Source of the DNA: Hirudo medicinalis
Lineage: Eukaryota > Annelida > Clitellata > Hirudinida > Hirudinidae
Assembly (NCBI GenBank): GCA_011800805.1
Contig: MPNW01000081.1
Location: forward strand, 87,398-151,397
DNA: 64,000 nucleotides
Reading direction: 5' to 3'
Below are positions 194 to 63,971 of this stretch, piece by piece. Under the pieces are notes generated by a model. It made no database searches. It was not told where the DNA came from and saw only the letters and a list, made by a program, of their open reading frames with translations. The stretch's first letter is position 1. Each line of letters starts with the position of its first letter. The position numbers and the translations under genes were made by a program.

Positions 194-3100
194 GCTCAAA
201 TCAAGGAGCTTATGCATGAGGTTGATGCTGCTAATGCTGCCAAAGATGAAATGACAAATGCCAGCAAAGACAGAGAAAAAAAGTATAAACAACAGGAAGC
301 TGAAATTCTTCAGCTTCAAGAGGATTTGGCAGCATCAGAGAGAGCAAGGAAGGTTATGCAATCTGAAAGGGATGATCTGCAAGATGAACTTGCAAGTGGT
401 GGAGCTGGAAAGTGAGATTGATTGTAGTACTTAGTCTTCAATCGCTTGATTGCTAGATGAAGATTTGTTGTTTTTTTTTAGGGCAGCATGGTTTGAAGAG
501 AAAAAGAGATTGGAGGCAAAGATAACAGAACTTGAAGAGGATGTGGAAGAGGCACAAGTGAATTATGAAACAGCCAATGAGAAAGCAAGAAGAGCTATTT
601 CTCAAGTATGGGTTAATGTTGTTACTTAATTAACTTGTCACTTCTTATCATTGGGTCTTTTTGCAAGGCTGAGCAAACAACAATAGAGTTGTCATCTGAG
701 AGATCACTTTCTCAGAAACTAGAAGGGGAAAAAGCTCAACTGGAAAGGCATAATAAAGATCTAAAGATGAAACTGTCTGAACTTGAAACTGAATTGAAAA
801 CAAAAGTTAAGGCAACACAGCTTACTTTGGAAACCAAGATCAAAAACTTAGAGGAGGCCCTTGATGTGGAGACAAGGTAAATGAATATTTGAAAAATGTT
901 TATTTCTATTATTACTGAATGACATCATAATTTTTATGACATCATAAAATGGTAAACCTTTCATTAGTTTTATTACTTTTATAGGGACAAGCAGACTTTG
1001 AACAAAATGCTTAGAAAACAGGAAAAGAGAATGAAGGAGTTGTTACTTCAAGTGGATGACGAAAGAAGGGTTGTTGATCAGTATAAGGAACAGGTAAAAG
1101 ATTGTTTGAAAAAGTTTTGTTGGATATAATAAATAGGCTTTATACTGTGTAGAAGTTCAGAATTCATAAATGTCCCTTTATCTTTGAGTTCTGATCTAGT
1201 TTTATTTAATGTCAATGTGATCTTATTTATATTAATTATATATTTATACAACTTGATGTTCAAGTTGAGTTAATAACTGAACATTAAACATGTTTTGTTA
1301 AAAGTAAGCTCACCATTTAGAAGAGATTATATTCTCAAACATCTGCTTGCAGTGTTATAAATGCATCCAAATGTCAATGCTAAATTTATACTTGTAATGT
1401 TTACTGTCAAATGACTGATCAGTTTCATCCTCTACAACCATCTTCAGGGTTATTCGCATGATCAAATATTTGCCAAATTTATTTGCCATGTTTATATTTA
1501 AACTTTAATTCTTTTTGTTATTCTTTTACTTTAAGTCATTTTGTCAGCATTGTTTTTTATATTTATAATAATCATAATTATATTAATTATAACACTTATT
1601 ATGTATCTTGCATAAGTTATTGAATAATAATCAGACATGAGGCCAAGCACTGAGATCCTAGTATGAGTACAAGTACCAAGTACCCCATGTCTGATAATAA
1701 TAGATAATATTATAAAAATTATTAGCAAACTATTATTACCATTCTAATATTGATTTAATGAATTATATCAAAAATAGATGTTAATATTTTACATGTAATT
1801 ATATGTAATCACCATTCCAAATAATGATAATATGGCTCCTTAAATAAACCTAAATATGTGTTGGATTTATTTCTGTAATATTCTTGAAAATGAATTACTT
1901 TTTCAATAGGTTGATAAGGCAAACAACAGAGTAAAGGTTCTAAAGAGACAATTGGAAGAAGCTGAAGAAGAAGTTGCAAGAGTAGCTGCTCAGAAGAGGA
2001 AGGTTCAAAGAGAACTTGATGATCAGATGGAGCAGGCAGTATCAACTCAAAGAGATTTGGATTCTATCAAAACCAAAATGAGAATGGGAGGTGCATCCGA
2101 CAAGCTCAGGTTGGACGGCATAAATTTTTTTTAACAAATTGAGTTGCAGCAATGACTGCACTATCATTGAACCAGATAAAAAGGCCTCAATTAGTTATTT
2201 CTATTGTGTTTCTTTGTGAGCACTGAAAAGCATTTCATCTGTCCCAATTCATTTCAGAGGCAGTTATTGAAAATGCACTGTGAGGCATTGGAATGCCAGT
2301 GGCTCTGAATGCCAAGATTCTTTTTTTTTTCTCAAATCAGTTTCCTTCCATGCAATGGAATAGTGCAAAGTTCATTTTGATCTTAGTATGATGAACATTA
2401 GATCACTTTTCATGTGAAAATACTGAATCTTGCCTGGACCAGAAGCTGGTCTAAATTGTTGCTTAGCCATCATTATGCAAATTTATTCTGTTTTGAAAAA
2501 TTCCTCTAAAGAGATATCTTTTCTAATTTCACCATGCAATTCTCCATTCTTGGTCTATTTCAAACATTAAGATGACTGCGCTCTGTAAATGGTTTAAGCA
2601 CCCCTGATGCTTATGGCACTATATAAATTCACTTAACTTACTTACTTATTTCTATGTAGTTTTTCATTATTTTTGTGTATGTATAGAATTCTGCTCAAAT
2701 TTGCTTCTGAATTCCAGCAAGGTTTAAGTTGAAAAGATATTTCAAGCATGAGTAGTTCTTGGTTGCACTCAAGACTTATATGAGGCTATCTCAGCCTCTT
2801 CAGTGGACTTAGTCTCATGTAGCAATTGTGTTTTCATATTCAGTTGCTGCCGTTTGATCTTGTGCAAATAACAAAATTTCACCATAACAAAATTACATCA
2901 TAACAAAAATTCAGGATCATGTGTCATTTTCCAAGGGCATTGTCATTGTCATAAAATAATGGAGTTTTTTGAACTGGGATCCTCAAGGGCATTTGCATTA
3001 CTTTCTTGTCTTTCACCAATCTATCTTTTATTTTTATTTTTTTATTTTTATTTTTAAAACAGTGCAAGCATATAACTGAGAAAGCTCTATCCTCCAAATG

Positions 3101-3410
3101 AAGAGCTTATTTTAACAAAACCTCTTTTATTTTGTGTGAATGTGTTCTATGCCTCAATGACCACACGACAGCAATCCTTATATAACCTTTTGAAAAGACT
3201 ATCATATTTTTCTCATTTTTTGCTGTCTGTAATGAACATGGTACTTGATTTTAATACACATTTTAAGCTTTTCTTAATCTGTTGAAAATTAAACAATTGC
3301 ACAGGTCTGCTCGCATTGGTGGGAGAAGTGCCTTCCTTTCATCAGCTGATGATGGCTCTTCTGAGAAAGATGAATCAAGTGAAGCCCCACCTCCTAATCC
3401 ATCCAGCTAA
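194..3410 (+). CDS. Non-muscle myosin II heavy chain, C-terminal exons (partial)
   Basis: Six exons: 194-411, 482-605, 668-876, 985-1093, 1910-2109, 3305-3410 (TAA). All junctions are AG/GT and phases agree. The product is the distal coiled-coil rod of a class II myosin, with heptads in motifs such as IKELMHEVDAAN, EILQLQEDLAASERA and ARVAAQKRKVQREL, followed by a short non-helical tail rich in Ser, Glu and Pro ending PPPNPSS. This tail type is found in non-muscle (zipper/MYH9-MYH10-like) rather than striated-muscle myosins. The rod drives bipolar filament assembly for cell contractility and cytokinesis. The motor head, neck and most of the rod lie left of the window. The acceptor of the first exon (GGCAG before 194) has a poor pyrimidine tract and lies near the duplicated sequence, so that boundary is the least certain. 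Confidence 0.9.
1285..1456 (-). repeat. Hammerhead-like repeat, copy A (intronic)
   Basis: Copy of an interspersed family recurring at 3055, 9741, 23969, 26775, 27178, 45845 and 61440. The outer end reads GTTTTGTTAAAAGTAAGCTC on the plus strand. On the minus strand the inner end reads CTGAAGA, a degenerate hairpin, then GATGAAACTGATCAGTC. It lies in the myosin intron between 1093 and 1910. Confidence 0.6.
2583..2645 (+). repeat. SINE 3' tail fragment
   Basis: The words GCACCCCTGATGCTTATGG and CACTATATAAAT match the 3' body of the tRNA-derived SINE best seen at 22959-23150. The tRNA-like head is absent. It lies inside the last myosin intron. Confidence 0.5.
3055..3123 (+). repeat. Hammerhead-like repeat, outer-end fragment (copy B)
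   Basis: The outer end of the same family in reverse orientation to copy A: ACAGTGCAAGCATATAACTG, then CTTATTTTAACAAAACC. The hammerhead-like core is missing. Confidence 0.55.
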
Positions 3411-6489: not shown

Positions 6490-7020
6490 ACTTTGAGACA
6501 GTTGGAACGTTCTTGCTCAGGAGGCCCCAACCACATTCCTAATATTTTGCTAAAAAGCTGAGCTTTTAGCTTATCATATCCACTCAATCATATTTTCAAT
6601 CTTTCTCTTAGTAATGGACTTATGCCCAGAATCTGGAAAACAGCTCATGTTATTCCCATCCACAAGAAAGGTCCAACATCTAGCCCCTCGAATTACAGAC
6701 CAATCTCCTTCATATGTATCTGTTGTCGAGTCCTGGAAAAAATAATTAACAAAACGATTCTACACCATTTAATCTCTCTGGACTTAATATTTCCTCAACA
6801 ACATGGATTCAGACCACTTAAATCGACCACCACAAATTTACTGGAATGTTTTATGACTGGACCACTTCAAAGCAACGGCGTCAACAAACAGACATAATCT
6901 AATTCGACTTCCAAAAAGCCTTGTTCCAATGGCTATCCAACTTTCTGTACTATAGAAAACAGAACGTCCTCATAAATGAAACAACATCGGGTTCGATTGA
7001 CGTTACTAGTGCCTGCGGCA
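6490..7020 (+). pseudogene. LINE reverse-transcriptase fragment
   Basis: The main frame (6622-6897) contains WKTAHVIPIHKKG and NYRPISF, the N-terminal reverse-transcriptase motifs of jockey/CR1-type non-LTR elements, then FPQQHGFRPLKSTT. A shifted frame continues with FQWLSNFLYYRKQNVLIN. The segment with the catalytic YADD box is missing. It is nested within the hAT-bounded block. Confidence 0.75.
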
Positions 7021-9129: not shown

Positions 9130-9735
9130 TTGACATCTAAGAACATGGAGAAGAAGGCAAGACTGAATGAGCAAAAAAAATGGATCAGATTTGAGCTTTC
9201 GAGAAGTCAAATTATTCATTTTCCGTCATTTCTAATGAACTCAATTGCTCTAAAACTGTCACGAGAAGCTTTCTGAGATGTCCAGAGGAATATGGAATGA
9301 AAAATCCTAGGGGAAGACCACCAAAACTCTCGGAGAAGGATCGACGAAATCTCATTCGAGAATGTTCAAAAGGAGGATTTTAACTTTTCTGAGAGGAAAA
9401 CAGGCCTCCGAAGACTATATCGAGACAATCTTCAGTATTCTCATTCTCTTTGCTAAGATTCACCATAAAATGACTTTGATTTCCACCAGGACACACCTCA
9501 AAGGAGGTGATAGAATGTCCAGCGTGTTTTGCGGACTTAAATCCCATAGAAAGAGTCTGGGAGACTTTGACAAGGCAGGTATAATACAATGAAAAACAAT
9601 ATTTAATTGTTAAGGAGTCGAAAAGGTGATAATTGAGGAGTGGAAAATATTACGAAATGAATACCTGGAACAATTGGTGGCATCAACGAAATCAAGATAT
9701 ATTGATATGCTTACAGTATAATACGTCTCAGTATT
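9130..9735 (+). pseudogene. Tc1-type transposase remnant
   Basis: Plus-strand frames give an N-terminal piece with NPRGRPPKLSEKDRRN (helix-turn-helix linker typical of Tc1 transposases), a later frame with PACFADLNPIERVWE (the DLNPIExxW block holding the second catalytic Asp), and a C-terminal LEQLVASTKSRYIDM resembling Tc1 C-termini. The central part is shortened and several frameshifts separate the blocks, so the element is dead. Confidence 0.7.
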
Positions 9736-9740
9736 TTCAT

Positions 9741-10260
9741 TTAAACATGTTTTGTTAAAATAAGCTCGCCATTTGGAGGAGACAGTTTTCTCAGTCATAT
9801 TGAGACAGCTTGCACTGTTTTAAGTACGAAAAAATTTTGTCACCAAATCTACATTTGTAGTTTTTAATATCCGAATGATCAGTTTCGGCCTATAAGGCCA
9901 TCGTCAGGGTAATAAGAAAATACGAAAATTTAAAGTAACAGTTTCAATATTATTTAATAGTGAAATTAAAATTTAAAATACAAATGTCAAATATTTGATT
10001 ATAGGAATGAAACTAAAATATAACATAAAAGATAAAATGTTGAAGAGCAATTCTAAAATTGCAACATAGGTAACAGATGTAGTTACAACGTATCACCGTT
10101 TTCTTCTGAGTGACAATGCTTTCATTGTCATTCAGGTGAGCAAACGAAGCAACGCCTTGAGTGACATCCAGATTAACATCAGAAACAAATCCATCAACTA
10201 TAACATCTGAGACTCCAGTTTTTCCAAGTGCTACACAAGTTTTGTCTCTCAATGCACTGT
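9741..10260 (-). repeat. Hammerhead-like repeat with unidentified coding segment (copy C)
   Basis: Read on the minus strand: a coding-like segment (about 10250-10060, containing DGFVSDVNLDVTQGVASF) comes first, then AT-rich DNA, then the core CTGACGA, a GGCC-based hairpin and GAAACTGATC at 9916-9872, then the outer end finishing near 9741 as TTTAAACATG. The order coding, core, outer end also holds for the copy at 45560-46015. The protein is not one I recognise. Confidence 0.6.
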
Positions 10261-10527
10261 CAAATGCACAATGTTAAAGAAGCTGAAAAATTAGCAAGTA
10301 CAAGGATTTAGAGATCGAAATTAACCAGATGTGGAATGTGAAAACCAAAGTAGTAGTAGGAGCACTCGGAACATTGAGAAAAGACATCGCGGAAGGTATG
10401 GAGTTGATACCAGGACGTCCTAAGGTTTCAGAGATCCAAAAAATCTCCCAGTTTGGGCATTTAGTGATTCATCCTTCATCGGCTGGAAAGCCGAGAGGAA
10501 TAATGTGACAATTCCATAATAATAACA

Positions 10528-10568
10528 ATAATGATAATGATGACGACGACGACGACGACGACGACGAC

Positions 10569-10644
<76 letters not shown>

Positions 10645-10698
10645 TTGCTCACTGCTGCTGCTGCTNATGATGACGACGACGACGACGACGACGACGAC

Positions 10699-10773
<75 letters not shown>

Positions 10774-10780
10774 ACTGCTG

Positions 10781-10866
<86 letters not shown>

Positions 10867-10909
10867 ACTGCTGCTGCTGCTGATGATGATGATGATAATA
10901 ATAATAATG
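10528..10909. repeat. Compound trinucleotide microsatellite
   Basis: About 380 bases of uninterrupted triplets in ordered blocks: (GAC)n, (GAT)n, a CTG-rich block, an N at 10666, then again (GAC)n, (GAT)n, (CTG)n, (GAT)n, (CTG)n, (GAT)n and ATA. All six frames are open, giving only homopolymers (Asp, Met, His, Ile, Ser, Leu and others), so none is a gene. The repeated GAC-GAT-CTG order suggests a segmental duplication of the tract. The N suggests the assembly may have mis-sized it. Confidence 0.95.
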
Positions 10910-11436
10910 TATTTGTACATGGTCCACGTTATTTGGTCCAGTGTCTAGTAATTATCACCACCAATTCAAAAGAAATATTGAAAAACGTAGAAAGATTGAC
11001 ATAGAAAAATTTAAGATAAAATTTTTAAAAAGTGAAAAAAAAAACTGTGTCTCGTCTTTAATATAATAAAATCGAGAGTTAAGTATACTTAAAATAAAGA
11101 CAAAGACGAGTCGAAATATTTTTCTCGATACGAGAAGACTTTGTCTCGAGACGTCATGGCCCTCTGGGGCATGCTGCCCTCGTGTCTATGCCATTGATTA
11201 TTATAGTATTAAAACAACAATTAATTTATTTAACAGAATAATTAGAATTCTGTTAATATGTTTGTGTGAATATGAATATCCATTATGAATATGCGCCTTT
11301 ACCTAACTAAAATAGAAGTGTTTTTGCTTTTGTTATTTTTTACTCTATGTCACGGTGATGCGTTGGCTTTAAGTATTTTGTTGCGATCTGAGTGATCCTG
11401 TATATAGTACATTTGGTGATCGGTTTTATTAAAAAG
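10910..11436. promoter_or_regulatory. Presumed promoter/5' region of the EDEM3 gene
   Basis: Bases between the microsatellite and the EDEM3 start codon. They hold a locally GC-richer patch at about 11100-11190 with repeated GTCTCG/CGAGA words. No TATA box stands out, and assignment as promoter rests on position only. Confidence 0.3.
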
Positions 11437-20400: not shown

Positions 20401-23400
20401 AAGCTCAACCATCCTTGGTGCTCTTCAAATGACAACGAAGACCTCATAAATTAACTCTTATTGTTAGTAGTAATATATTGAGTCTAAATGATTGCAAGGC
20501 AGTTGTTAGTGATAATGTCACAAGCTCATGGAGATGTACTTTCTTTTGGACATGGGTTTTTTTCTCAAACTGGACACTTTATTCTTCTGATACTCATCAA
20601 CTTTGATAATCACCTGGCCACATGCTCCAGGCAGGCAAGTGAATCTGCTTGACCTTTGCATTGTCTGATAGTGAAAAATAAAAAAATTAAATGGCACAAT
20701 AAAATAATTTCTTTGTAATCTTCTTGCAGCAAGTATGAAGTTTCAGCCAATAAGACATTTTTCATAGCAAATGGAGACAAGAACCTACCTGATGTAAAGC
20801 ATAATTTGAACAATTTTGTCTTCCTTTTAGAAAGGTTTCGAGCCTTTCAAAGAAATTCCAAACCACAATCAAGCTTACTCAGTTGTCTACTAAAATTTGA
20901 CTCAATTTCCTTATTGAAGTTGTGGAAGTTATTAGCCTTCAGTTTTATCCAGATTAAATTTTTGTTCAAACCTGAATATGACCATTTTCATTGGCCCCTG
21001 GTGCGTGCACTTTTTATGATCTATTTTTGTTACACAAGGCCTTCAAATTTCACTATTATTTAAGTAGTTAAAGACAGTCTACTTGCATATATTTAATTTA
21101 AAGCTTGTTATAATTTGATTTACTGAAATTTTCTCTGAAAGCTTCACAAAATAGTCTTTTTGCACATCTGATGTGAGTTTTTGAGATCTTCCACTCATTT
21201 ATTTAGTTCCCTAGCATTTTGAATCTTGTAAAAATGTAGAAGCAACATGGACATTTATATTCAATTACATTTTAAAACATTTTAAGGAAGAACATTTGTT
21301 TGTTGAAGGCTGAAATCTTCAGCTTTCTGTTCAGCTGACATTCCAGCTGCTTATACTAGTGACAAAAATAATATCTACTGAAATATTAAACCATATTACC
21401 ATTTATAAAGTTTTGCAATGCAACTATTATAATGTGGGTCTTTTAATGAAGCTTGAGGTTGAGAAAAAGTTTGCTGATGGACATATCATCAGAAAATGTA
21501 AATGTAATGTAAAAAATGTTTGTAACCTTTTTACACAGCCTAAATGACATATCTTAGTGAATATGCAAGCAATGATTGTTAAGTCAAATAGAAATTTGAC
21601 ACAAGAATGTTACATCATAACTTACATATTAATTCCAAATTTGGCTTTGATCTAATGACAAGAAGTTGAGAAGTTAGAATGTTCTACCCACAAAAGATAT
21701 ACAAATTATATAAAGGGAATGTTAAAAAAACATTCTTTGGTTTTAAATATGGGTTATTGCCTGGTGGTATTCTGTTTGAGTGATATGATTCAGCTTTTGG
21801 CTGTTACATATTAATTCAAAGGGAAGTTTGATTGAACCAATTTTTGCAGGATGGATTCATTTGTATTTGCTGAAACATTCAAATATCTGTTCCTATTATT
21901 TTCTGAAAAGGAGGATCTGAATGTTGACATAGATGATTTTATATTCACCACTGAAGCCCATCTTCTACCTCTTTTCCTCTCTATTCATGGACATAACAAG
22001 ACAGAAGTATTAATAATTTTTTTTTTAACTGCTATGTTATAATAAATGAATGTTACTAATGCATTGGACATAAGTTATGTTTTGTTCTGATAGTTAACAT
22101 GTTTGCAATTAAACCCTTTGGTGTTATATGCCATCAATGTTTGATGAGTTTTTTGTTTATGTAATTGGATTAGTAAGTGGCAATGTCACATTATCTTCTG
22201 ATTGATTTGGTCACCTTTAATCTTGTAAGCATTCAACTTCAATAATTAACTTAATGTTAATGACTGCTCAGCAATTGCAAAGTGTATTTCACAACTTTTA
22301 TGCCATTTAACAGGACATTCCCTCTCAAATTCTGAACAGTTTGACAGAGGAGGAAGAGGATGAGGCAGAAGATGATGAAGAATTTTCAAACACTTGCCCA
22401 AGTGCATCTCATCTCTTCAAGGGAACAATTAACTATGCACAAGATCTCAGAAATCCTCTGAAAAATATGGTTGAGAGATTATGTCCAAGGCCTTTTCAAA
22501 GGTTTAGAATTTATCGACCTTTGTAAAAGTTAAACTTTGACTATAATTAAATAAGTGATCTAATATATTAAGTAAAATAACGCACTTGTTAAACTTGCTT
22601 TGCTTGTTGTATTTTGTATTTAGCCAATTTATGAATGCCTTGGGTATCCAAATAGTTTAAATAACGGAGCTCCCTGGAAATGCAGACTGGGTTGAGAACT
22701 TGACACATTACAACTTACCATTACTTCCACGTGCAGGAACACTTGTTCAGCCAACCTGCACACTAATTGTACATTTTTATCAGAATGAACATCTTTCGAT
22801 TTGTGGAAATTTTCTGTTTTTTAAACTATCTTCTATAACACTTTTTGTAGTATATCTCAAAATTGAAAATTGACTAAGCTTTATTTATCTATATACTTAT
22901 TGCATCACAAGCATCTGGTGCCTATGAATGAAAAAAATGAGTTTTTCTGAATAATGATGCAGGTTGGCCGAATGGGTTACGTTCCTGCAAATGGCGGTAA
23001 TGGCAACAGTCGTAATGTGTCGTGTTCGAAACCCAGCCTGCAATGCAGCAAGCGCCCTTGGGAAGGAGCGCTATATAAATGGTTGACAAGAAGCGCCTCC
23101 GACGCTATGCATATGGCCCTATATAAATGAAGTACATTTACATTTACATGATGTAGTTAAACTTAGGAAGCATGGCTTACTTACCATGGCTACTGAACTG
23201 TGTATTACCATCTGTTCATAAGGATGCTGATACATTTCCTGACTACATACTGCCCTTCAATTTACAATTTTGTACGTGATGGAGAGTAATTAAATTAATT
23301 ATTTTAGGGGTTAAAACTGTTACACTGTCCAGTTAGTATCAAATATATCAGGAATCATAGATTCTTGAAACAGATTTTGTACTTCTCAAACCATCATTTA

Positions 23401-26400
23401 AAACCTTTATTTCTCTGATTTTGATGAGATACTGATCTAGCCTTTCAGCATTCTGGGCACTTAGAAATCTTGGAGACAATATAATTTGTTTGATAACTCA
23501 CTTTATAAAAGTATAATGAGTTCATTAGAGTATGATTTTTTTTGTTACCTCATTTTGTAAGATTCAAATTATATTGTTGTATTACATTAGTAGAACCTGT
23601 TGCAAAATTGCATTTTAGGGCCTCTTAACAATCAGTACATTTTTAAAAGTTGCTACTTTATTTTTTTAAACTACAATAAGGAAATATCATTTACAGTGAT
23701 TTTTATACTTGCCCTTCATCAGGTCTTTGGGAAACTCAGAATAATGTATTTTTAATTTTAAAGCAAAAAATGATGATGATGATGATAATGTTGTGATGAT
23801 TTCTTGAGTTTTCAGATAATATGTTGTCTTCAATATTTGTATAGTTTAGTAGTACATAAACTTATTATAAAGTAAGTATTGTGATACACACAATATTTTA
23901 ACATTTGTATTTTAAATTTTAATTTCACTTTTAAATGTTCTTGTAACTTTAAATTTTCGTATTTTCTTATTACCCAAACGATGGCCTTAGAGGCCGAAAC
24001 TGATCAATAGGTTATTTATATGATAAAAACTACAATTATAGATTTAGTGACAAAATTTTTTCATACTTAAAACAGTGCGAGCATATGACTGAGAAAGCAG
24101 TCTCCTAAATGGCGAACTTATTTTAACAAAATATTTTAACAATATATTTCTTTCTGAGAGCAGCTAATAGTTGTGTCTATAACAAGTTTTTCTGAATTAA
24201 ACAAAGCTGTAAAATTCAAAATAGTCATGAATTATTTTAGTACAAGTTGTTATACTCCTAGGAATAATATACAAATGTTAAATGTCAAATTCACATTGTA
24301 AAGGTTACAAAGAATACAATGTTGAATGTTTACCTTACATAACTACAGCATACATAGGAAGATGTACTTTCTGATTATGCTTGCCATTGTTTTAGAATTG
24401 GAGGTCGTCTAAGGGCCTTAGACTTCATAGCAGGCAATAAGGAACAGATGGAGCATCTTAATCAAATGGGAATTCGACTCATCACTATGAACGATGGAAG
24501 AGTCCAGCTAGTTCATATATCTTCTGAAGTATTTTCATTTTCTTGTAAAATGATTTAATTCCTCATTACGTGTTATATAATTTGACAAATAATTTCAATT
24601 TCAGGCCATTTCCCCTGAAGCAAGTCATGATGGCATGTTGTTTATGCAAGAAATGATTGAACTCTCCAAATCTCAATCCAAAGAAGGTTTTCAGAAGTTA
24701 TATATTTAGATTATGTTTATTACTTCTACTTCTGATGTGGGGCATATCCACAGGGAAACATTGTCACAAATCATCAACATTTCAGCACAAACTTCTCCTT
24801 ACTTTCTCAGGGAGGGTTCTGCACCTTTTGACTGGACAGAGCTCTTGCCCCTGTTTGTTAAATTACCCTTGCTTAGCCTTACCCATAGAATATGAAACTC
24901 CAGTAATGCGGAGCTCAGCAGAGATTCCTCAGAGGAGTGACCATGTCTTTAAGTGTTTCGGCCCTCATCTCCTTTTGTCCACAACCAATGGGAAGCCATT
25001 TCAGAAGCCTTCGACAATCGTTCCATAACTTTGCTTCTCTCTAAGTAAGGTGTAATGGGATCCATCCCCCAATCCTTGTGCTCCAACTTCAATGGCAAAG
25101 AAGTGAACTCTATACCCTTTGTCAGCGAGGTCCATCATGAGCTCAGAATACTTGTCTTCTTTAAGCACGTTGCTTTGCTCCATTCTCCAGACTCATGAGC
25201 GTTTGCCTTTGAACAGGCTGCCTCCATTGCTTCAACCAATATTTGCAATACTTGGTTGTGCCGCCTTGTGTTCCGACCTTGTGCTAAGGCATACTTACAA
25301 CTTGATAAAACATGCCGAAGCGTCTGGACCTCCCCATAGAGCACACACCTGGTATCTTCTACCATTCTCCATTTCCACAGGTTGTCATGAGAGGGTAGTG
25401 GGTCATACAAGGATCTTATCATAAAAGAAAAGCCGGAGTGGTGGCATGCTCCATATGTTGATCCATGAGATTGGGCCTCATCCCATGTTGTCCACTGTCC
25501 TTGTTGGCCTTGCTGCACTGCTTTTGTGATTCTGGCATTTTCTATATACCTTTTCCTCTCTTGGATGATTAATGCCGATCTTTGGGCATGTTTAGGGACG
25601 TGCACCCAAATTGGAACATGCAGCCAATATAGGCCCTGTTCTCGCTGACCTAACAGGAGACTGTTGGAAGCTCTCCTATTGGCTGATTAGTGAAGCCCCA
25701 CTATTGGCTGTTGAAATTAGCATGCTGGCTTGATAGGAGACTGTTGAAAGCTTTCCCATTGGCTGACTAACAAAGCCACGCAATTGGCTGTAACTAACTA
25801 GTCCAGCCAGACGTCATACTGCCTTGAAAACTTTCCTCTTCAACAAGAGCTTCCTCTAAGTTTACGATGTCATATTTTTCCTCTGGAACACATGCCACTC
25901 TTAATTATCAGATTATCAATCTCAAATTCATTATCATTAAATGCTTATTAGTGCTTGACATCATTCTGTGGATGCACACTCAGTGTCCTCACCAACCAGA
26001 CCAGCCTGTTTTCTGGCATGCCATTATCCATTCCAGTCTGAATTAAATTTATTTTGATTTTATTTAAAGCCAGAAGTGGGCTAATGTTGAAAAGGGGCAG
26101 AGGGGCATAAAAAATGAGCAGGTTTTTGTGGGTGTTCTTTATGGATGACCCCTTGAGTCTTTATTTGGCCACAATTAAAATTGCAAGCAATGGGTTTTTT
26201 ATGCGGTGGTTGGAGAAGTGATGGGCAAACTCACAGGGAGTTTGTCAGTTCTACTTAGATTTCCAGGGTCATGAAGTAGGGGTAGGGTAGGGTAAGGTTA
26301 GGGATGGAGTTAGGTACCAAAAGTGCCTGTGAGTTGCCTTTTGTCCATCATTTAACAATCTTTCATGTTAATGTGAAATTCATTCATGATGTCATTTTCA

Positions 26401-29400
26401 TTTTTGAGTTACTTTTGCTTTTTTCTTTATATTTTATCTTTTCTTGTCAATGATTTAATTATTTATTTTTTTGGTAAAATTCAGTGCCTTTAGAGCCAAG
26501 AGTGGTACAATTTTTATCATCCCCAATGTTTGGGTCTGTTGTGCTAAAGGCAGGACCTGCACAATTTGGTCTAAATCTAAAAAATCATCCTGGAGTAAGC
26601 TCATTCTATTCAATGATTAACCCTTTACTTGACTGGACAAATAAAGTATGATGTGAATCCTCAAAAATTTTGCTTATATGTGTATGAAATCTCAAGTCTC
26701 CTAAACTTTCTGGCATATTTCTCTGTATCATGTGTTCACATGTTTTTCATGCATATTAATTATGTTTTTGTTTAAACAAGTTTTGTTAAAGTAAGCTCAC
26801 CATTTAGAGGAGATTGATTTTTCAGCTATATGCTTGCACTGTTTTAAGCACATAAAAACTTTGTCACTAAATCAAATTAATATTTGATTAAGCAAATAAA
26901 ACTAAAATATCATAACATAGATAAAATGTTGATGAGCAATTCTAAAAGGCAGCAGTTGCAGTTTTGTAATAACTAATTGTTAGTTTTATTTGTTTAACCA
27001 ATTATTCGACATTCGTATATATATTTTTATGTGCGTGCGGGTTGGCCGAATGGGTTGAGTTCAAAACCCAGTCTGCACTGCCAGAAGCGCCCTTGGGAAG
27101 GAGCGCTATATAAATGGCTAACAAAAAGCACCTCTAATGCTTTGCATATGGTGCTATATAAATGAACTATATTTTCATGCTATCCTGACAATGGCCTTAG
27201 AGGCTGAAAGTGATCAGTTGGTTATTAAAAACTACAAATATAGATTTAGTGATAAAGTTTTTTGTACCTACTTTAACAAAACTTGTTTAATCAAAAGTAT
27301 TGATCCATTACATTGTAAACATATTAATAATATTATAAAGAGTTGTAAATCATTTATTACATAAATTATCAATTATGAACTTATTCAGACCCATTCAAAG
27401 AAATATTGATTACTATGTAAAGTGATTGAGTTGCTTGTTGAAGTCACAAAAATTGTCTTGAGTGGAAAAATGACAGACATAAAATTGGTGTTTAGTGATC
27501 ACAATTAGATTTGAGTTGACATTTTTTATATTTGGATGTTCATACAAATGTCTTAAAAAGTCCTCAATTTCTGAAACTTGGATTTTTTAGTACTAAAAAG
27601 TCCTTAAAAAAACGAGGGATGTCCTAAAAAGATTTAAAGAGTCCCAAAAATTTTTTATTGGGAAATCAAAAGGAGCGGGAATTCACTACCTCTTTGTTCT
27701 AGATCTACATGGGAATGCACTCAACTCACTCGCTTGTCTGTTTGATCTCTCAAAGTTTTGATAACACTGCCTGGAATTTGTTCTTTCAATAGTAACTCCA
27801 ACAGGCTACTTCTTAGTACCTGTAAAAGGGAGCAAAGAATTTATCTATTTTTAAGGAGCATAAGGGGAGTCATGATGATTACAAATTCCTGAGGAGAAAT
27901 AGTCAGAAGGTTGTTAACGTTAAGTAACATTAGTCAGACATCTTGTGAAAGGGGCTTTTCCATAAACAAGAGCTTGGTTTCTGAAAATCAAAAAGAGAAG
28001 CTTAACTGCAAGAAGGATAATGAGAGATCATGCCAACAGTGTTTGAAGTGTTAGTAATTTCAAAATTGATAAATCTGTTATTGGTCATCGCAAAGCATCA
28101 AGGCAGAGGCATTTTATTTGGACACTTTAGATCAGCAAGACAGGTAGCTAAAAATGAGAAGCAGCAGATGAAATGATGGAGTTGAGAAAGAAACTGAAAA
28201 CATTAAAGCATGACCGAGATTTATGAGACAAAGAATTTGGCAGATTAATGGTGGAAAGTAACCAGGAAAGGGATCCATTGGTCCAGTCCAACAGCCTAAG
28301 AAATGGATAGTGAGGCAAAAGCTGCAGAAATTGCATATCTAGAAAAGAGAGCTTAAGCATTGAATTTTGTGTTAATAAATTGATATTTTTAGCCCTCAAG
28401 TATTTCTATTTTGTATTACAAATCTAAAGTCTATAAAACAATCAATGAAGTCTAAATACCGGTATTTATGTTCATAATTTCCTAAAAACTGAGTAAAAAG
28501 TCCTAAATCTCAGTTTCCAATTTCCTGTACGAACCATGTATTCGGTTATTTGTTCACAAATTTCCAGATGCTGTTATGTTTTTGGTATGTAGACGCTGAG
28601 CATGGCAGACATTATTAAAGTGTGGCCTACCTTAAGAATTAAATCATAATTTGATGTTTTTAAAAGATTGAGGGTCAAATTGCAAAAGCTGAACCTTATG
28701 ATGGTTGTTCTCCACTGAAAAACAAATTGGAAGTCCAGACTAAGGTTGTTATTGTGGAAAGAGGGGGATGCATGTTTATTGAGAAGGTTTGTGATTGTAA
28801 ATGTTGTGAATTATTGCATAACACATACTTCGTACATTTATCTCTTATTTTATATCTAGCAAATATAACCATAAGCTAATTCCAGGTGTTTTTGATAAAT
28901 CGAGAATTGAATTACATTTTATTTTTGCAGGCTAGAAACATTCAAGATGCAGGAGGTTTGGCAGGGATCGTTTGTGGTAAGAAGTTGAGATTTTTTAATT
29001 CGTTCAAATTTTGATCAAAAGTAAAATTGTAGATAATAACTCAGAATCTTCAAGCTCTTCGTCTCAGTATTTTTCCATGTCTGGAGATGGAAGGACTGAT
29101 GTGAATATACCTGCAGTGTTTCTTTTTTCTGATGAAGCAAAAGTACTGAATAATGCAATTGCAACCATACCTGAACTGGTTGTCTATGTTGGCGAGAGCC
29201 TAGAAAACCAGGTTGATTGTTTTGACTTTGGAATTGTGTGTTGATATATATCTTAAATCTTTGTTGACTGAATAAAGTTTATTTGGGTCACCAGGGTATT
29301 AGAGGTTTGACTCTAAATCTTAAAATTTCAAAATATTTTTCCTCTTTAAATTTTAGTTCTCTTGCTTCCTTTTAAATATCTTCATGGGTTTCAAAATTTT

Positions 29401-32009: not shown

Positions 32010-33211
32010 AAACACTAAATTGCAATTTAAACTGCAACTAATCGCTGATATATCATTTTAACGGTTTGTTTTGTTTTGTGTTAAGACTCTTGTAGGGTTT
32101 TCAATTATCGATAATTTCTGTGTGCCTGAAATTAAAGAATTGTGAGGAAGAAGTGGGATGTAGTCTGTTTTTAATTAAAAGACTACATGTGGACGTTTTC
32201 CCTCACACGACCTTCAGGACATGAGGCTTCACTCGCTCCTGTCGAAACCTGGTCGTGGATGACGGATGTTTCCCCAGTCATATTTCCAGCCTACTCGCGT
32301 TTGTTCGAGACGCCATATGCGATGACGTCAACGAAAAATGGTCTTCCAGAGGTCGCAATAAGTTGACCGTCTATTGGCGGGAATTAATAACAGAGCGGGG
32401 AAGGTGGGGGGCATGGGGAGTGCGTTCTCTCGTTTGAGTGGATTGAGGATATCTGGTGCTGGGAGGTAATTTGCTTCTAGTTGGTGTTATGTTTCTCAGT
32501 TCGGTTAGGTGGTGAATTTTTAGGAAGGGATTTATTAATGTTTTGTCTATCATTCTCCTAGAAAAGTGATTTTGTAAAAGTGTAAAGTTATTTAGCGATC
32601 ACGTTTTGAATTGGCGCTACCAGTGCTAGAGGTTCTTATAAAAACGTTGCTCCACTTGAATTAGGATGACTATAAGGAGCCAATAGGGATGTTCTGGTCA
32701 TTGTGATTGACATCTGAGCGACCAATGAATCGCATCAAGAATGTTTTAGCACCTCCCACGCATTCACTGATTAGTGTTTATTTCTTTTAAAGGCGACTTA
32801 CTTACAATGCTAGAAATTATTTGTTATTTAGATATGATTGAAATGCTAAATACTGTTCGAAATCCTTTGCAAAATATTAAAATTCATTGACACTGGAGAA
32901 TTTCATGTGACAAATTTTTAAAATGCGAAACTATTTAAGACCGAATAAAAGAACCATAGTCGACGATATTCTACTTCAAGAACTTTCGAGAATTGTGGTG
33001 GCCAGCCTTAATTTTATTATGAATTCTTGCAGCTAAGTTGTATTGCAGAAATTTACTGATGGGATGTTTTAGGATTAAATTATCTTAAGGTTTAGATCAT
33101 TGTCTAGATCATTTTGTGTTGAAGCATTTATTTGACAAATCTGAAAGGATTTATAATTATTATTGACCCCGTGATCCTGGAACCGCGACAACTGAAGAAA
33201 ATTTTAACATC
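32010..33211. other. Intergenic spacer between EDEM3 and the Lmx1 gene
   Basis: No convincing gene. Both neighbours are on the plus strand, so this stretch should contain the Lmx1 promoter. A GC-richer patch at about 32190-32420 is the likeliest regulatory part. I could not identify specific sites. Confidence 0.4.
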
Positions 33212-42733: not shown

Positions 42734-45700
42734 TTAATTCAAATGAGCCCCAACATTAGCTGGCACTGGGTTATGCCATTTCCTGGTGACTTTATTCATA
42801 GACTGAGGATGTGCACTATCAAAAGAGTTGAGTCCTGCATAAAGTTTCTTTTCAAGCTCTGCAGCTCTTTCCTGCTCCTCCCTCACTTGCCTTTGGAGAG
42901 CATCAATTCTGAAGAGACATTTGATAACAGAGATGAAAATAATGTTTATATGTATAAGAACACACACAAATTACAGTTTCTTGTCCTCAAAGGATTTAGC
43001 CTCCATTTTTTTTCTCTCTTGTTCAGAAATCCTTAATCTCCTTTCGTACTCTGATTCCATTCGAGACCTGGCCTCACGTTCCTGCTGCAGCATCCACTTA
43101 AGATCAGCCACTGAAGACTTTTGGATAGATGTATGCCCATCTTGATCCTAAGGATTATATTTTAGCAGCAATTGAAATACTTTAAGCCAACAAATAGCTC
43201 ATAAGGTTGCATTTGATGACAAATGGAATGACATTAAGTGATCAAAGAAAGAATAAATTATTGCAAAACTTTAACAAATTATGAAACATCACAAGATAAT
43301 GTATAGACATTTTATAAATATTTCATAAAACAGAGCAGATATAAATAAAAAATGAGTATAAGACTCAAAATATATTTAGATTCATATCGTATGTATTAAA
43401 TAAAGTTAGAACCTTAATCCCCTCTAATTTTTTTGGAATTGTTGGGACCTTGAACCAATTTTGAGCACCTGATTTCATATTAAAGCCAATGTCACCTCTT
43501 CCTGAAAATGATACTGAAGCATCTGCAGTATAAGGACATAACCTAACATCAGAGGAAATGCTACTTTTAGAATCATTTGATGTATGGGTGGGTCTTATGG
43601 CTGTGAATTCCATGCTTTTTGAGGCTTGAAACTTTATATCTTTTGGGGGCTGTGCCATACTTTCTTGAAATTCATTCAATACCAAACTATTTACTTGGGA
43701 CACAAATCTGTTATCATTATCTATGAAGGTCATGTCATCAAATACTTCTTTCTTGAAATTTATTAATTCAGTGCCAAGGGGCAATGAAGCTAATTTCTTG
43801 CATGGATTTGATGACTGACGACAGGTTGTGGGAGTTGCATCCACTTTTAAGCTACTTTGGGAAAGGGAACTTTTCAATCCAAACCCTGGATTTGAGAAAA
43901 TGAGGGGTTGCTGATCTTTATGTCTTTTAAGACTACTAACACTAAGGTATGGCTGCTGAACAGATGCATCATTCTGTGTAGGTATATTGAAGGTTATCTG
44001 CAGTTTTCCTGTGGAGTAATTGTTCAGATTACCTTGAGGTGTCAGCGGCTTCCATGATGTCGAAGTATTATCAGTGCAATCAATTTCAGTTTCAGCAGCA
44101 TAAACCAAAGTTGCCCTCTGAGGGCCTGACACATTATGCATTTCTCTCATAGTATTCTGCAGACTTCTATCCAGTTCACCGATGTTTTTGGACATACCTA
44201 AAGTTTGGATGTTACAAATCTTTGGAGCCATTTGAGAATCTGATGAGATAGTCCCTGGCCTCACATCAAGCCATGAAGATGAATTGTTGTTGTCGCTTGG
44301 TCTGCCAACTCTTGAAGAAACAGAGACTTTATCAAATGCCTCAACTTCAGGACTGTTCATTCTTTCACCAGTAATGGAAACATTGAAACCACTTCCTAGA
44401 AATGCCTGGTCTGAAATATTCTGTAAAGATGTAAACGATATATAAGATCCACTATCATGAATCTCCCTCATTGTTCTCCTTCTTCCCAGATTCCCTTCCT
44501 CATCTGCCATCAAATCATTGAGTGAATCTGCACTTCCTTCAAACTTCATTGAATTTTTCTGTTCACTCAGAGACTCATCAATCTCAGCTAAAAGTGGAGA
44601 GAGTTCTCTTGCTATATTGCTGAGCTTCATTTGCTGAAAAATTGAATGAAAATACACAATAAAAATAATAATTCAATACTGCCGTATGTTGTGGGCGACG
44701 TGTGCACTGAACTAGCTATGCCAATGTAAGAGCTAGGAGCGGCAACTTTCCCTTTGTTCGTTCTAGCCCTAGATGTGTGTTAGGCAGCATGGATACATGG
44801 TGAATAAAGTGGCTGTCCATTACTGTCTTGGTATAATCGATTAATTGCGAGTTACAACACCATCTCAAACTTGATGCCTTGTAGCTAACCTTTTTCGCCA
44901 ATAAATCTCTGAAAAAAACATGGAGAAGACTCAAATCACGGGCCAAATCCAAACCTATCTCTACATCAATATTGTCATCTTCATTCAGAGCTCCATTGAA
45001 ATTCTATATAAACAGAAATTAATTGTTAAGTTAGGCTTAATTAAAATAAATCAAGCATTTAATTAAATAATCTCTCATAGTTAGATGCATCAACTGGAAC
45101 TAACCGATATTTCATCAATAAATTTCTTTAATTTAGGTGTTTGAGATTCCACAAACTCATTTAAGAATATCATAGCTTCCTCTTTGCCTTCACCAAACCT
45201 TAGGAAAACATTAAACATTATCAATCTAAATAAATATAATGAGATAGTTCCTCAATTTTACAAAGTAAATAAAAAAAAATCAAATGAACAAATTTTACAA
45301 AAATTAATTCTCTGAAGATACACACATTACAAAGGCAAAAGGTTGTTGTAAGATCTGACATCATTCAGATTTAAATAATCAACCACTAATATAAATTTTT
45401 TTAAATTAAAAATTATTAATAAAATAAACCATAAAAATATAATTTAAGATTACGACTCCCAAAAACTAAGAATAAATTTAACCATTTAATCTCACCCTAG
45501 TCAAAGAATTTATTAGATATTATATTATTTATTAGATATTTTTCATATTTAAACTTTAAACAAAACAATGCTGGCAAGAAGGTTGATGATGCAAGTGCAA
45601 GGTGGCAGCATCAAGGAACAGTTGAACAGCTCCTTCAGAATAATCCATCTGCCAGATTATTCGTGATGGTGATGTTAAAGACATCTCCAATGCAGACAGT

Positions 45701-48700
45701 GCACTGACACATGAAAAATGTGAAGTCACTAGAAAAACTAGAAGAGTCTCAGATGTTGCAGGTGATAAGGCTCCAGAAAGACTGAGTGGGACTTTAGCCA
45801 AGGAATCTTGATATGTTACTGTCTCAAGTACAACTTAATTGTAGTAGGTCACTCTATGGCACTGCCGAAGCTGGTCAGCCACTCGATAATAAAAATTACA
45901 AATATAGATTTAGGATAGACATTTGGACATATTTAAAACACTTCAAGCAGGTGCTTGAAAAAACAATCTCTTGTAAATGGCAAGCTTATTTTAACAAAAC
46001 ATGTTTAAATGAAAACTTTAAATTGCAAACCACAAATTCTAAGCCTTATTTGACTTTCTCAACATACTTCTACTTTGAAAAATATAAACCTGGAAAAATT
46101 TGCCAGTCCTTGTATGGCTTTTGCCACAAGGGTGCAGTTCCTAGCTTCTTTTTCCTGGGGAAGAACTCTAGTGAGACCAAACAAACTTGGTGACATGATA
46201 GCTGGGCAGATAAATCTCAGGAAGAAACAAGAGCCTATCACTTGATTTATAGTGTCATCAGAGTGACCTTCCAATGACAGTCTCTTTTTCAAGTTTGTGA
46301 AAATTTTCTTCAATTCGCTAAGGACAGAAATCTAAACTTGTCTAAAAAAATCTAAAAACATAATACTGGAAACCAACAATATCTATTTTTAATGTAAACT
46401 CACACAGGAAAGCCAGTTTCATCGTTTGAATGACTTGAAGCAAATAAATGAGAGCATGCTACGTTGCAAAACTTGAGCAACCTTTCCTGCCTTCTTTGTA
46501 ATTCATTCCCATTCGAAACATGATCAACTTCAAGATTTAGATTTGGATCTAATAGAGGTGCAACAAAAGCTCCTAGCACACCTTTCAAGTACTTTTGAAA
46601 TATAAACATTAATTTATTTTTTAAATGATTTAATTTTAATTAAAAGTCATAACAAGTGTCATACTTTCTCAGACACAAGCTTCATAAAAGCATCAATGGA
46701 TTTTGATGCAATGCTATTGCTTCTCAATAATGTCTGAACATTTTCTGCAAAATAATTATTCTAAAATGAATTAAAACTAATTTTTAAATTGAGCTGAACT
46801 TTAAGAATTAAATTATTGTAATGCTGTATTCTTTAAAAAAGAAACATGAAATGGGAGAGTTGCAAGAAATATATTATTTGATACTCAATGCCAATATAAG
46901 ATGCCTTTCAAAATTGCCTAACTACCACAAATAAATAAAGGATGTAAAGTTTCAAACTTCAACAAGCATGGAATCCAGTCTAATATGTTATGTAAAGGAC
47001 AAATATCTGTTTGCCACACTGCGATTGGCCGAATATTCATCGAAATGGGTCGTGCAATAATGCCATGTAACCAATGTACAAATAAATACAAAACTATTCA
47101 ATTAATTTTTTTTAATTACTTATTATTTTTAATTAACCCCTGGATATCCAGGTTCTCCATAAGCAAAGAATTATTTTAACTACTTTATTGTGTTTATTAT
47201 TTATACTCATTATGTTATTCATATTATCATTTGTATTTGGGGCCTAAAGCAAAATGAAGAAAAAAGTTGAGGCCAAATGCAAGTTGGATGTTGTTTATTT
47301 TATGAGAATTACTGTAAAAGGAATTAGGGATGGCATGACATTTTTGTAACTGCAAGTTGTCATCCAATCACCCACCTTGCTTTTCAACTTCGGTAATAAC
47401 GGCATCGACGAGAAACATTTCAGATTTCTGAACATTCCTGAATACATTGACCATCAGGATGCTAAACTCTTCCTTCTCTTTAGCACTCAACAGCTGCTCC
47501 AACTCACCAATTATTGTCAAGTAATTATGTTCCAAGTGCTGATAATGAAATGATTTGTGAAATACTTCAAATGATAAGATAAAAGAGGTGCTAATGAACC
47601 TTCAAGAGAGGAGAATAAAATTTGAGTGGAAGAATGTCAAGTGACCGATATTTAACTTTTATTCTAACAGAGACATCTCCACTCTCTTTATTTGAACCGC
47701 TTTTGTCGCTCACAAGTCGAACTGGATACCATTTTTCCTGCGCAAGTCCGGGAATGAGATCGGGCAATTGAAATGAAATGCAGCCTACAAGCACCAATTA
47801 TAGTATTTAAATGAAGTCTCTAATGTTTCCTCTAAACCACGCTTCGGCACATTTATACAGCGCCACGTGCGTAGCGTCAGAGGTGCTTCTTGTTAACCAT
47901 TTATGTAGCGCTCCTTTCCGAGGACGCTTGCGGCAGTGCAGGCTGGGTTTTGAACTCGACACATTACGACCATTGCCATTACCACCATATGATGGAATGC
48001 AACCCATTCAGCCAACCTGCACGCCAAATGCAAAGTAATCTCATTTTAGCTTGAATTGAATTTTAGCAATTTTTTCCAAATTTTATTTATTTATGTAGTT
48101 ATTAAAAAATAAAACTTTTTAAAATGAAACATATTGAAAATCTAATGATGGCAAAAACTGAAATCTCAGAATGGCATAATGAAAGTGTTGATACAAGAAG
48201 AAACTCCTTAAAAGAATTTAATAAGATTTAACAGAATTTCTAAAGAGTAGAAAAGGTATTGTTGTGTTTAATAGAGCACAACGTCTACAAGTAAATATAT
48301 TATAAAATAAGAAAATAAATAAATAATGACTGAGGCAATAAATATAGCTTTCACATTACCTATGAGAATGCTCAGATCTTTTTTCTTCTTTTTGTCAATA
48401 TCTTGAAAAATATTGATCACTAATTTCTCCCCCTTCTCCACAGTTCGCAAATTCCTTATAAAAAGAAAATGGAAGAGTGGCATTCTCATGGACATGTGTA
48501 TCCCAGTTTCTGAATTATCATTTCTAATTAAATCTTATAAGTCATAAACCTGAAATGAAATTCTTCTCCCCAAAAGAGCATTTCGCCTTTGGCTTTAGTC
48601 GTTGTTCGTCCATAAACATGGCCATCTATGGTTAATTCACAAAAGTATCTGCAAATAAAATTAAATTTGATGCACTCCATCATATTTACTTTGTCTCAGT

Positions 48701-54977: not shown

Positions 54978-55173
54978 GCAGGTTAGCCGAATGGGTTACT
55001 TTCCTGGATACGGCGGTAATGGCAACAGTCGTAATGTGTCGTGTTCGAAACCCAGCCTGCACTGCCGCAAGCGCCCTTGGGAAGGAGCGCTATATAAATG
55101 GTTAACAAAAAGCGCCTCTGACGCTATGCATATGGCGCTATATAAATGAACTCCATTTACATTTTTATGCCGT
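54978..55173 (+). mobile_element. tRNA-derived SINE, full-length copy
   Basis: Head GCAGGTTAGCCGAATGGGTT (A box) through GTGTTCGAAACCCAGCCTGC, body GCGCCCTTGGGAAGGAGCGC, TATATAAATGGTTAACAAAA, GACGCTATGCATATGGCGC, and the ATGAACTCCATTTACATT end. With the copy at 22959 it defines the family consensus; they differ at only about a dozen positions. Confidence 0.88.
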
Positions 55174-55500
55174 AAAAGATAACGATAACGATACATAGTT
55201 TGATTAGAATGGCGTGTGTTCAACAGAACTTCAAGACCACTAACACAAACATATATCGGAAGTACTTTATATGAAGCTTGAATACTGCCAGCGCACAACC
55301 AGTCATAAAATTCAATCAAGAAACTGGTTTTCACTAACAATCTATAAAAATATTTGCTATCGATGAAATTCGTAATTTGATCGGAAGTAAAATTCATGTA
55401 AATTTAATTTTGTATAGCACGCATACGAATACATCACGCAGAGGATATATAAAATATATACGCGTGGTATATAAAATCGAATATAAAACGCGTATTATAC

Positions 55501-61300: not shown

Positions 61301-62283
61301 CGAGCAAGTAATGAACTACTATCTTCCCCTAAACATTACTCAATCATGCTGAATTTCTCTAGATTGAGTGAACCAATAGATCAGAGTATGAATACTTGTA
61401 CTTATTCATAATTTACAATATAACTGCTCAACATTTTCAATTTTAAAACTGTTTTGTTAAAATAATGAATGCCATTTGGAAGAGATTATTTTTTTCATTC
61501 ATCTGTTTGCAGTATTTTAAATACACACAAAGGTAGTCACTAAAGCTATATTTGTAATTGTTAATATTAGCCAACTAAGGCCATCATCAACGAACGTTGT
61601 CCTTCAAGGCTTAAACTGTATGAAGCCTTATTCATGTCGAGAAAAACCACTTATTAATATGCAGAAAGATTTCACAGTTGGCAACTAATCCTTGTTTAAT
61701 TTTGCTTGCATTCACATGAATGCCAATATGCTTGTACAAAAAACAAAGAATGGAGGCACCAGCAAAGTTGTGTCCACAACTGGTGATGGTCGTCCTACAT
61801 TCTGTGAAACAGTGGCTGTATGACCCCACCAAAATAATGTGTCTGTCCATGTTATTCATGATGGTGATATTAAAGGAACCTCCAACTCAGACAGTGCATT
61901 GACGCATGAAACTTGAAGTTGTTGGACAAACTAGAAGAGTCACAGATATTGCAAGTGATGGATTGATTCATGGAATTGATTTTGATGTCACTCAAGGAGT
62001 TACTTCACCCCTTCACGTGAATGAAGATGCTTTCATCACAATCAGGAGGAAATAGTGTAAGATTGTAACTACAATTGTTGAAATTTTTTTGCATTTTAGA
62101 ATTGCTCATGAACACATACCTTTTGTGTTAAGATAATTTAGTTTTACTTGTTGGCATTTAAGTAAGTGCATTTAAGTGCATCATCAAATATTTCACTAAC
62201 AAACATAATTTTTAACTTTGCTTTTAATTATTTATGTAACTCCATCACTGTAAGCTATTGTTTATTCATAATTGTGAACAATT

Positions 62284-63900: not shown

Positions 63901-63907
63901 CGTTATG

Positions 63908-63971
63908 GTTGGCCGAATGGGTTGCGTTCCTGCATGCGGTCGTAATGGCAACAGTCGTGATATGTACAAAG
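63908..63971 (+). mobile_element. SINE head, damaged and cut near the window edge
   Basis: GGTTGGCCGAATGGGTTGCG (A box) and GTAATGGCAACAGTCGTGAT match the SINE head. The sequence diverges where the B box should be, and no body follows. Confidence 0.65.

Follow-up and report, generated by a model that had tools for sequence, protein, structure and literature searches.

Dispersed repeats in the medicinal leech read as truncated Penelope-like insertions with a small hammerhead-like RNA at the start of their reading frame

The dispersed repeats in a 64,000-nt stretch of the Hirudo medicinalis genome (contig MPNW01000081.1, positions 87,398 to 151,397; hereafter the window) are best read, with a probability of about 0.87, as truncated, no longer functional insertions of a Penelope-like element (PLE) with an endonuclease; the element's pseudo-LTR (pLTR) appears to end in a minimal type I hammerhead overlapping the start of the open reading frame (ORF). 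The element class, the overlap of ORF and hammerhead, pairing kept between two families, a palindrome, 3' ends in two classes and inverted partner pieces are legible in the letters themselves. PLEs with minimal type I hammerheads, possibly working as dimers, have already been reported, and the leech element adds another such case.

The repeat family in the window and the genome

Self-comparison of the window returned a single dispersed repeat family, some pieces of which show no recognisable hammerhead. In all, four hammerhead-like copies can be aligned, two more are decayed and three fragments have no hammerhead (Table 1). Inspection of the sequence confirmed that all six sites at which the initial annotation had described a hammerhead-like motif contain that motif or a decayed version of it. 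The span it had singled out, 9741-10260, is copy B, but the homology extends over about 9700-10261 in the self-comparison, in which 9741-9995 matches copy C and 10010-10261 matches 61890-62144. Copy B runs from an ORF C-terminal remnant through the untranslated region and the hammerhead to an ORF N-terminal piece ending with the tail, and its 3' end belongs to the long (tail) class described below; its reading frame is shut at codon four (TAG), as judged by eye.

Among the four alignable copies, two have core mutations and two have broken stems. In copy A the core letters and the GUC site are intact, stem I is broken and stem II is largely broken. The window copies look inactive, and none would be expected to cut. 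A covariance model finds copies A-D in the window with scores of 46-66 bits, which are circular, as all four belong to its training set; copies E (45845-45870, plus strand) and F (61555-61600, minus strand) were not recovered by this search of the window.

In the 133-Mb host genome, the most frequent form of the hammerhead is CTGACGATGGCCTTAGAGGCCGAAACTGATCAGTC. By itself, TGATCAGT occurs at about the chance level in the window (6 observed, 3.11 expected; 3 of 100 shuffles reach 6). The complete hammerhead pattern does exceed chance: it gave 38 genome matches, which include a few look-alikes, and the reversed-pattern control gave none on the forward strand and 1 on the reverse. A 37-nt piece downstream of the hammerhead, allowed up to 3 mismatches, gave 67 genome matches (control, 0).

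Table 1. Positions of the PLE pieces in the window and of a twister and a hammerhead candidate on a viral contig (L362)
Feature	Position	Strand	Remarks
Copy A	1284..1455	-	Hammerhead 1406-1455
ORF N-terminal piece of the same family	3045..3127	+	No hammerhead; from self-comparison
Copy B, truncated PLE insert	9700..10261	-	From self-comparison
Copy B, candidate hammerhead	9866..9915	-	Core letters intact; stem III C-G pair lost (CTGATCATT)
Copy B, AUG (A9, inserted U10, G10.1)	9899..9901	-	Partly by eye
Copy B, PLE ORF C-terminus remnant	10093..10261	-	Stop at end; matched at C81:97500-97658
Copy C	23892..24139	+	Hammerhead 23967-24016; mutated core CAAACGA
PLE piece	26765..26951	-	Hammerhead region absent between 26873 and 26879; head to head with copy D
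Copy D	27170..27330	+	Hammerhead 27177-27226; G8 to A, GAAAG replaces GAAAC
Copy E	45565..46016	+	ORF C-terminal remnant to about 45766; decayed hammerhead 45845-45870, then ORF N-terminal piece; region matched by the ORF C-terminal query at C81:133056-133166
Copy F, ORF N-terminal piece	61434..61600	-	Heavily decayed hammerhead 61555-61600
ORF C-terminal remnant and partial untranslated region	61830..62150	+	Faces copy F head to head; hammerhead not seen; C81:149167-149449
L362, twister and hammerhead candidate	1370-1423 and 1767-1797	-	

Other features of the window include SINE-like repeats at 22959-23155, 27049-27178, 47850-48021, 54978-55174 and 63907-63965, of which the second abuts hammerhead copy D and the third, at 47935-48022, was called as tRNA-Met. 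A long trinucleotide and nonamer array (GAT-type) lies just past copy B at 10484-10930, and LIM-domain exons, presumably of one host gene, lie on the plus strand at 33167-33532 and 35290-35628.

Hammerhead core, stems and predicted folding

In the hammerhead alignment, built from the sequences retrieved, family 1 contributes 28 and family 2 contributes 15 of the 43 distinct rows, and all share one gapless 50-nt frame: 5' stem I, CUGANGA, U, stem II, GAAA, stem III CUGAUCAGU (which includes A15.1-U16.1), H17 and 3' stem I. Family 2 retains the core and the stem positions with different letters in stems I and II. The full catalytic core (CUGANGA, GAAA, U16.1 and H17) is present in 23 of the 43 rows, including the commonest family-1 form. 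The initial annotation had cautioned that an extra U follows CUGANGA in every copy. This is nearly so, as U10 is present in 42 of the 43 distinct rows and missing from one, and the extra U is no defect, because together with A9 and G10.1 it forms the AUG at which the ORF starts and which is kept in 39 of 43 rows.

Over the 43 rows, 79.2% of stem cells pair (shuffled mean 70.7, reached by 0 of 500 shuffles), 72 cells are changed on both sides (shuffled 34.3; 0/500), and the covariation score is 0.305 (shuffled 0.186; 0/500). Pairs changed on both sides (9; shuffled 8.0; 164/500) and pair types (25; shuffled 24.3; 227/500) show no excess. Of the five measures, three show an excess and two do not; the signal is mostly a single contrast between two related families, and partners slid by +1 still give a score of 0.278. 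A 32-row subset gave 81.9% paired cells and a score of 0.352, which flatter the alignment relative to all 43 rows, as the 11 rows absent from it are near-duplicates or have broken stems.

Pairing amounts to 68.6% of cells in stem I (family 1, 60.1%; family 2, 84.4%), 87.4% in stem II (95.0% and 73.3%) and 86.8% in stem III (86.9% and 86.7%). Five of the seven stem I positions pair in family 1, and 17% of shuffles do as well, whereas in family 2 all seven register positions pair, matched by 0.23% of shuffles. Compensated stem II changes occur in single copies (C-G to A-U in L026, G-C to A-U in L023). With the core, three stems and a UH site in register, and with stems I and II varying yet still pairing across the families, the hammerhead reading is supported. 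The small hammerhead RNA carried by the Penelope-like element is probably self-cutting.

In stem III, CUGAUCAG forms a perfect palindrome, which is entire in 29 of 43 rows and keeps its central GATC in 41. The folding model hardly forms stem III in the monomer (family-1 monomer probability ~0.00). The stem III that the initial annotation had drawn within one molecule is therefore not predicted, but it is predicted in the dimer for the family-2 majority sequence and for 5 of 15 family-2 copies. The best fold of the family-2 majority homodimer is a double hammerhead at -42.6 kcal/mol, with stem III probabilities of 0.81-0.99; with shuffled arms, 10 of 300 family-2 dimers fold as a double hammerhead. 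For the family-1 dimer, the double hammerhead reaches -29.2 kcal/mol versus -33.0 kcal/mol for the best fold, so that another fold is favoured by 3.8 kcal/mol. Among natural copies, the mean probabilities of stems III and I both exceed 0.5 in 5/15 of family 2 and 0/28 of family 1; among the four family-2 copies with a complete core, this applies to L023 only. No hammerhead fold is predicted for family 1, the family represented in the window. The minimum free energies of four single copies, with z from -0.68 to -2.14, are weak evidence.

A 2017 paper by Lunse, Weinberg and Breaker reportedly deals, to go by its title, with small PLE-linked hammerhead variants that cleave as dimers, a set that the leech hammerhead would resemble in small size, PLE linkage and dimers. 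In the accessible part of a review, PLE hammerheads are described as minimal type I, arranged in tandem and possibly cutting as dimers (PMC7761336).

These letters may also be conserved only because they encode the start of the ORF, a 10-residue peptide, with the hammerhead likeness a relic that has no RNA function. The AUG in 39 of 43 rows agrees with this, as do the start peptide common to both families (BLASTP E=3e-5, where one side was a typed family-majority peptide) and a monomer RNA for which no hammerhead fold is predicted. However, CTGANG precedes the AUG and is non-coding, yet is common to both families, and the fully paired stem I of family 2 (7/7; 0.23% of shuffles) has its 5' arm in non-coding sequence. 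Within the coding part, the third positions of GAA ACT GAT CAG are identical in both family-majority sequences, and the stem II codons differ between the families while at least three stem II pairs persist. We consider purely protein-coding conservation unlikely, and prefer a hammerhead that overlaps the ORF start.

Coding order, 3' ends and element class

Among the element classes that the initial annotation had named, the Penelope-like one is supported by other copies, in which reverse transcriptase (RT) and putative GIY-YIG pieces lie upstream of the hammerhead. RVT_1 matches positions 896-1384 of locus L046 (E=1.5e-9, 38.4 bits; cut-off 29.6), and the linker follows the RT pieces; we take this RT to be of PLE type from its motifs and from its linkage to the nuclease part. 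The RT-to-nuclease linker has 11 genome matches, some within one copy, and 8 database relatives, five of which, one from Oratosquilla oratoria, carry a precomputed PF26215, presumably a marker of PLE-type proteins. Located after the RT linker, the GIY-YIG match in L041 (1189-1338) scores 18.0 bits, under the Pfam cut-off of 22.6, and the database relatives P0001 and P0006 score 15.8 and 19.6 bits against the same cut-off. In loci L037 and L041 a linker or nuclease part comes first and is followed by the ORF end, an untranslated stretch and finally the hammerhead region with the next ORF start, and a query with the ORF C-terminus, where the ORF ends upstream of the hammerhead, had 50 genome matches. 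No intact ORF was found. In viral contigs, no relatives of the RT pieces were found, and the strict family-1 hammerhead pattern had zero matches.

The initial annotation had seen no RT, which is right for the hammerhead family in the window, but a fragment of another RT family, whose LINE origin is our guess, lies outside the PLE repeats at 6562-6897 on the plus strand (RVT_1, 32.4 bits). A putative GIY-YIG nuclease remnant, however, adjoins copy E (45565-45624, by eye). A genome-wide search with the GIY-YIG model PF01541 missed the decayed PLE nucleases and returned one other frame and a frame that we take to be UvrC-like, on C762, a probable bacterial contig in the host assembly (G000). Contig C459 of the same assembly, which has an uninterrupted COX1 frame, is also probably bacterial, by our guess.

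The 3' ends were counted on 46 downstream pieces, 44 of them distinct, from that part of the genomic copies which was retrieved. Two classes, both inside the ORF start, account for 38 of the 44: 22 ends at ORF nt 151-165 (median 162) and 16 at 179-192 (median 188), the medians being 26 nt apart, slightly less than 30. Five of the remaining ends fall between the classes and one at 150 or less; four of the 44 are weakly anchored, and without them the counts become 19, 16, 5 and 0. Of the 17 copies examined, 6 have an inverted partner upstream and 2 have an extra direct piece, and an inverted 3' piece at C442:167831-167867 precedes the RT pieces of L046.

The two classes are like the optional tail that PLEs carry, which is 30-40 bp long and which the accessible text of one study places within the start of the ORF, flanked by two RT start sites (PMC11167929). 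Adineta Penelope, as far as the accessible sections of its description go, has a 31-bp tail; its pLTRs take in the ORF start and also occur inverted, mostly head to head (PMC3846280). The leech element is like that of Adineta vaga in a pLTR that reaches into the ORF, inverted head-to-head pLTRs and a tail; the ORF part in the repeats is 12 aa there, or 22 aa with the tail, whereas it is about 54 and 63 codons here. The word hammerhead is absent from those sections (PMC3846280).

Short hammerhead repeats could also be a non-autonomous retrozyme, spread as self-cleaved circular RNAs by the enzymes of another element. Metazoan retrozymes, according to the accessible text of one paper, consist of short repeats (~170-400 nt) arranged in tandem and equipped with type I hammerheads (PMC7229834), and most leech copies looked at match over only ~150-560 nt. 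However, no hammerhead tandem was found in the 17 copies examined, with their 6 inverted partners and 2 extra direct pieces, and in the copies the hammerhead is flanked by ORF pieces on either side, and the element they belong to has RT and GIY-YIG parts. A metazoan retrozyme, with short hammerhead monomers and no ORF, was rejected on the absence of tandems in these 17 copies and the presence of ORF pieces, and we regard the retrozyme explanation as quite improbable. Still more improbable is that the element is a DNA transposon or SINE that has a hammerhead by chance and whose terminal repeats make up the inverted pairs: the inverted pieces in 6 of 17 copies and the SINE-like copy abutting copy D would fit, but RT and putative GIY-YIG pieces stand in order with the hammerhead, and Penelope is known, from the sections cited, for head-to-head inverted pLTRs and a tail (PMC3846280). 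Retrozyme, SINE and DNA transposon were all set aside on the coding order, and the PLE reading is retained.

A second PLE-like family with a hammerhead of its own (stem I GAGGCU/AGCCUC) has 40 matches and sits on contigs C92, C312, C13, C258, C850 and others of the host assembly.

The inserted U, a possible switch and comparable hammerheads

Counted on the sequence, the distance from the AUG to the predicted cut (after GUC) is 26 nt. In the Poseidon PLE of Anolis carolinensis (PAc), according to the accessible text, the start codon comes after C3 and G8, with the cut 26 bp downstream of it (PMC11167929); since the distance is the same, the AUG of that element is very likely A9-U10-G10.1 too, as derived from the published distances. 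PAc further resembles the leech element in having the hammerhead at the pLTR/ORF junction, an optional tail and RT starts within the 5' ORF. These starts lie mostly 111-118 nt into the ORF, whereas the 3' ends here lie at 151-165 and 179-192, and the ORF is decayed here, unlike that of PAc. That the ORF begins inside the PLE hammerhead is a point made in the accessible text of PMC11167929 and not in that of PMC10085705; it may already be in print in the 2014/2017 PLE hammerhead papers.

The overlap of ORF and hammerhead suggests a switch between protein making and RNA cutting. Tandem intact copies would give an RNA that carries several hammerheads, and the palindrome would let two of them pair as a double hammerhead with a shared 10-bp stem III. 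This double hammerhead would cut the RNA within the tenth codon and separate the AUG from the ORF, so that one RNA could not be both cut there and fully translated. Ribosomes at work on the RNA would prevent the ribozyme from folding, and RNA withdrawn from translation would be the substrate of cutting. RNA cutting, dimer action and the translation/cutting switch are what we infer from the sequences. A general form of the idea is more doubtful and is offered tentatively: that U10 of PLE hammerheads builds the ORF AUG into the core, that initiation excludes cutting, that the palindromic stem III ties cutting to the pairing of two copies in one tandem RNA, and that this switch from messenger to processed RNA is shared from the leech to lizards. 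For the Anolis PLE, the accessible text reports that ribozyme mutants still insert in vitro, that cutting needed added protein and that the cut site coincided with neither the start nor the end of any read (PMC11167929), so the ribozyme may be dispensable. An AUG within the catalytic core yields a concrete hypothesis, for which a short RNA suffices as a test.

The plus-strand hammerhead of CChMVd has one extra nucleotide at the same position, between A9 and G10.1; in the accessible part of that work the natural base is A, A10U raises trans-cleavage 3-4 fold, and A10C and A10G are detrimental (PMC3705267). The two cases differ in the natural base and in that CChMVd is a viroid, not a retroelement.

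Viral contigs were scanned with the pattern CTGANGA, insert, GGC...GCC, GAAAC, and a match was counted as stem-supported when, in register, stem I reached 4 bp or more and stem III 3 bp or more. Among the matches listed, support was found for 85/125 with no insert and 65/127 with an inserted U; the figures for the other bases were 1/35 for A, 0/8 for C and 7/12 for G, the inserted G being readable alternatively as a shifted stem. A control with the upstream flank reversed gave 3 with no insert and 1 with U among the matches listed, and 0 for A, C and G. The distinct supported sequences number at least 76 with no insert, at least 57 with U, 1 with A, 0 with C and 6 with G. U is thus the commonest inserted base in the stem-supported hammerheads of viral contigs, among the matches listed. 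The doubt raised earlier over the extra U is largely removed, as an extra base is known at this position from the accessible text on the viroid hammerhead (PMC3705267), U is the commonest insert in viral contigs, and it supplies the U of the AUG. A preference for one inserted base was not found in the accessible text of PMC6155905, PMC3705267 and PMC3088659. The insertion count points to an extra U, placed after A9 and before stem II, as an ordinary variant of the hammerhead, and searches that require stem II directly behind CUGANGA could miss genuine ribozymes.

An Rfam search of the window, proposed with the initial annotation, lent it no support, with no hammerhead match at E up to 5. Nor did Rfam match a hammerhead in locus L033 (E up to 10), in 10 loci searched at gathering scores or in 5 loci searched with E up to 2; locus L010 matched Hammerhead_3 at 13.5 bits (E=1.3). 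Type I candidates without U10 (in L362, and one of two in L340) were also unmatched as hammerheads, so the Rfam miss is not decisive, and the idea that the extra U hides hammerheads from Rfam was dropped on the same grounds. In three of four loci with U10-free candidates, Rfam returned type III models below the cut-off.

In IMG/VR and GTDB contigs, 95 of 247 pattern hits with an extra U between A9 and stem II were stem-supported type I hammerhead candidates (control, 4), among the matches listed; examples from viral and bacterial contigs are L121 (3 copies), L124, L176, L193, L295 and L303. The viral contig L362 also carries a type-P5 twister scoring 57.4 bits, above the cut-off, about 350 nt from its type I hammerhead candidate.
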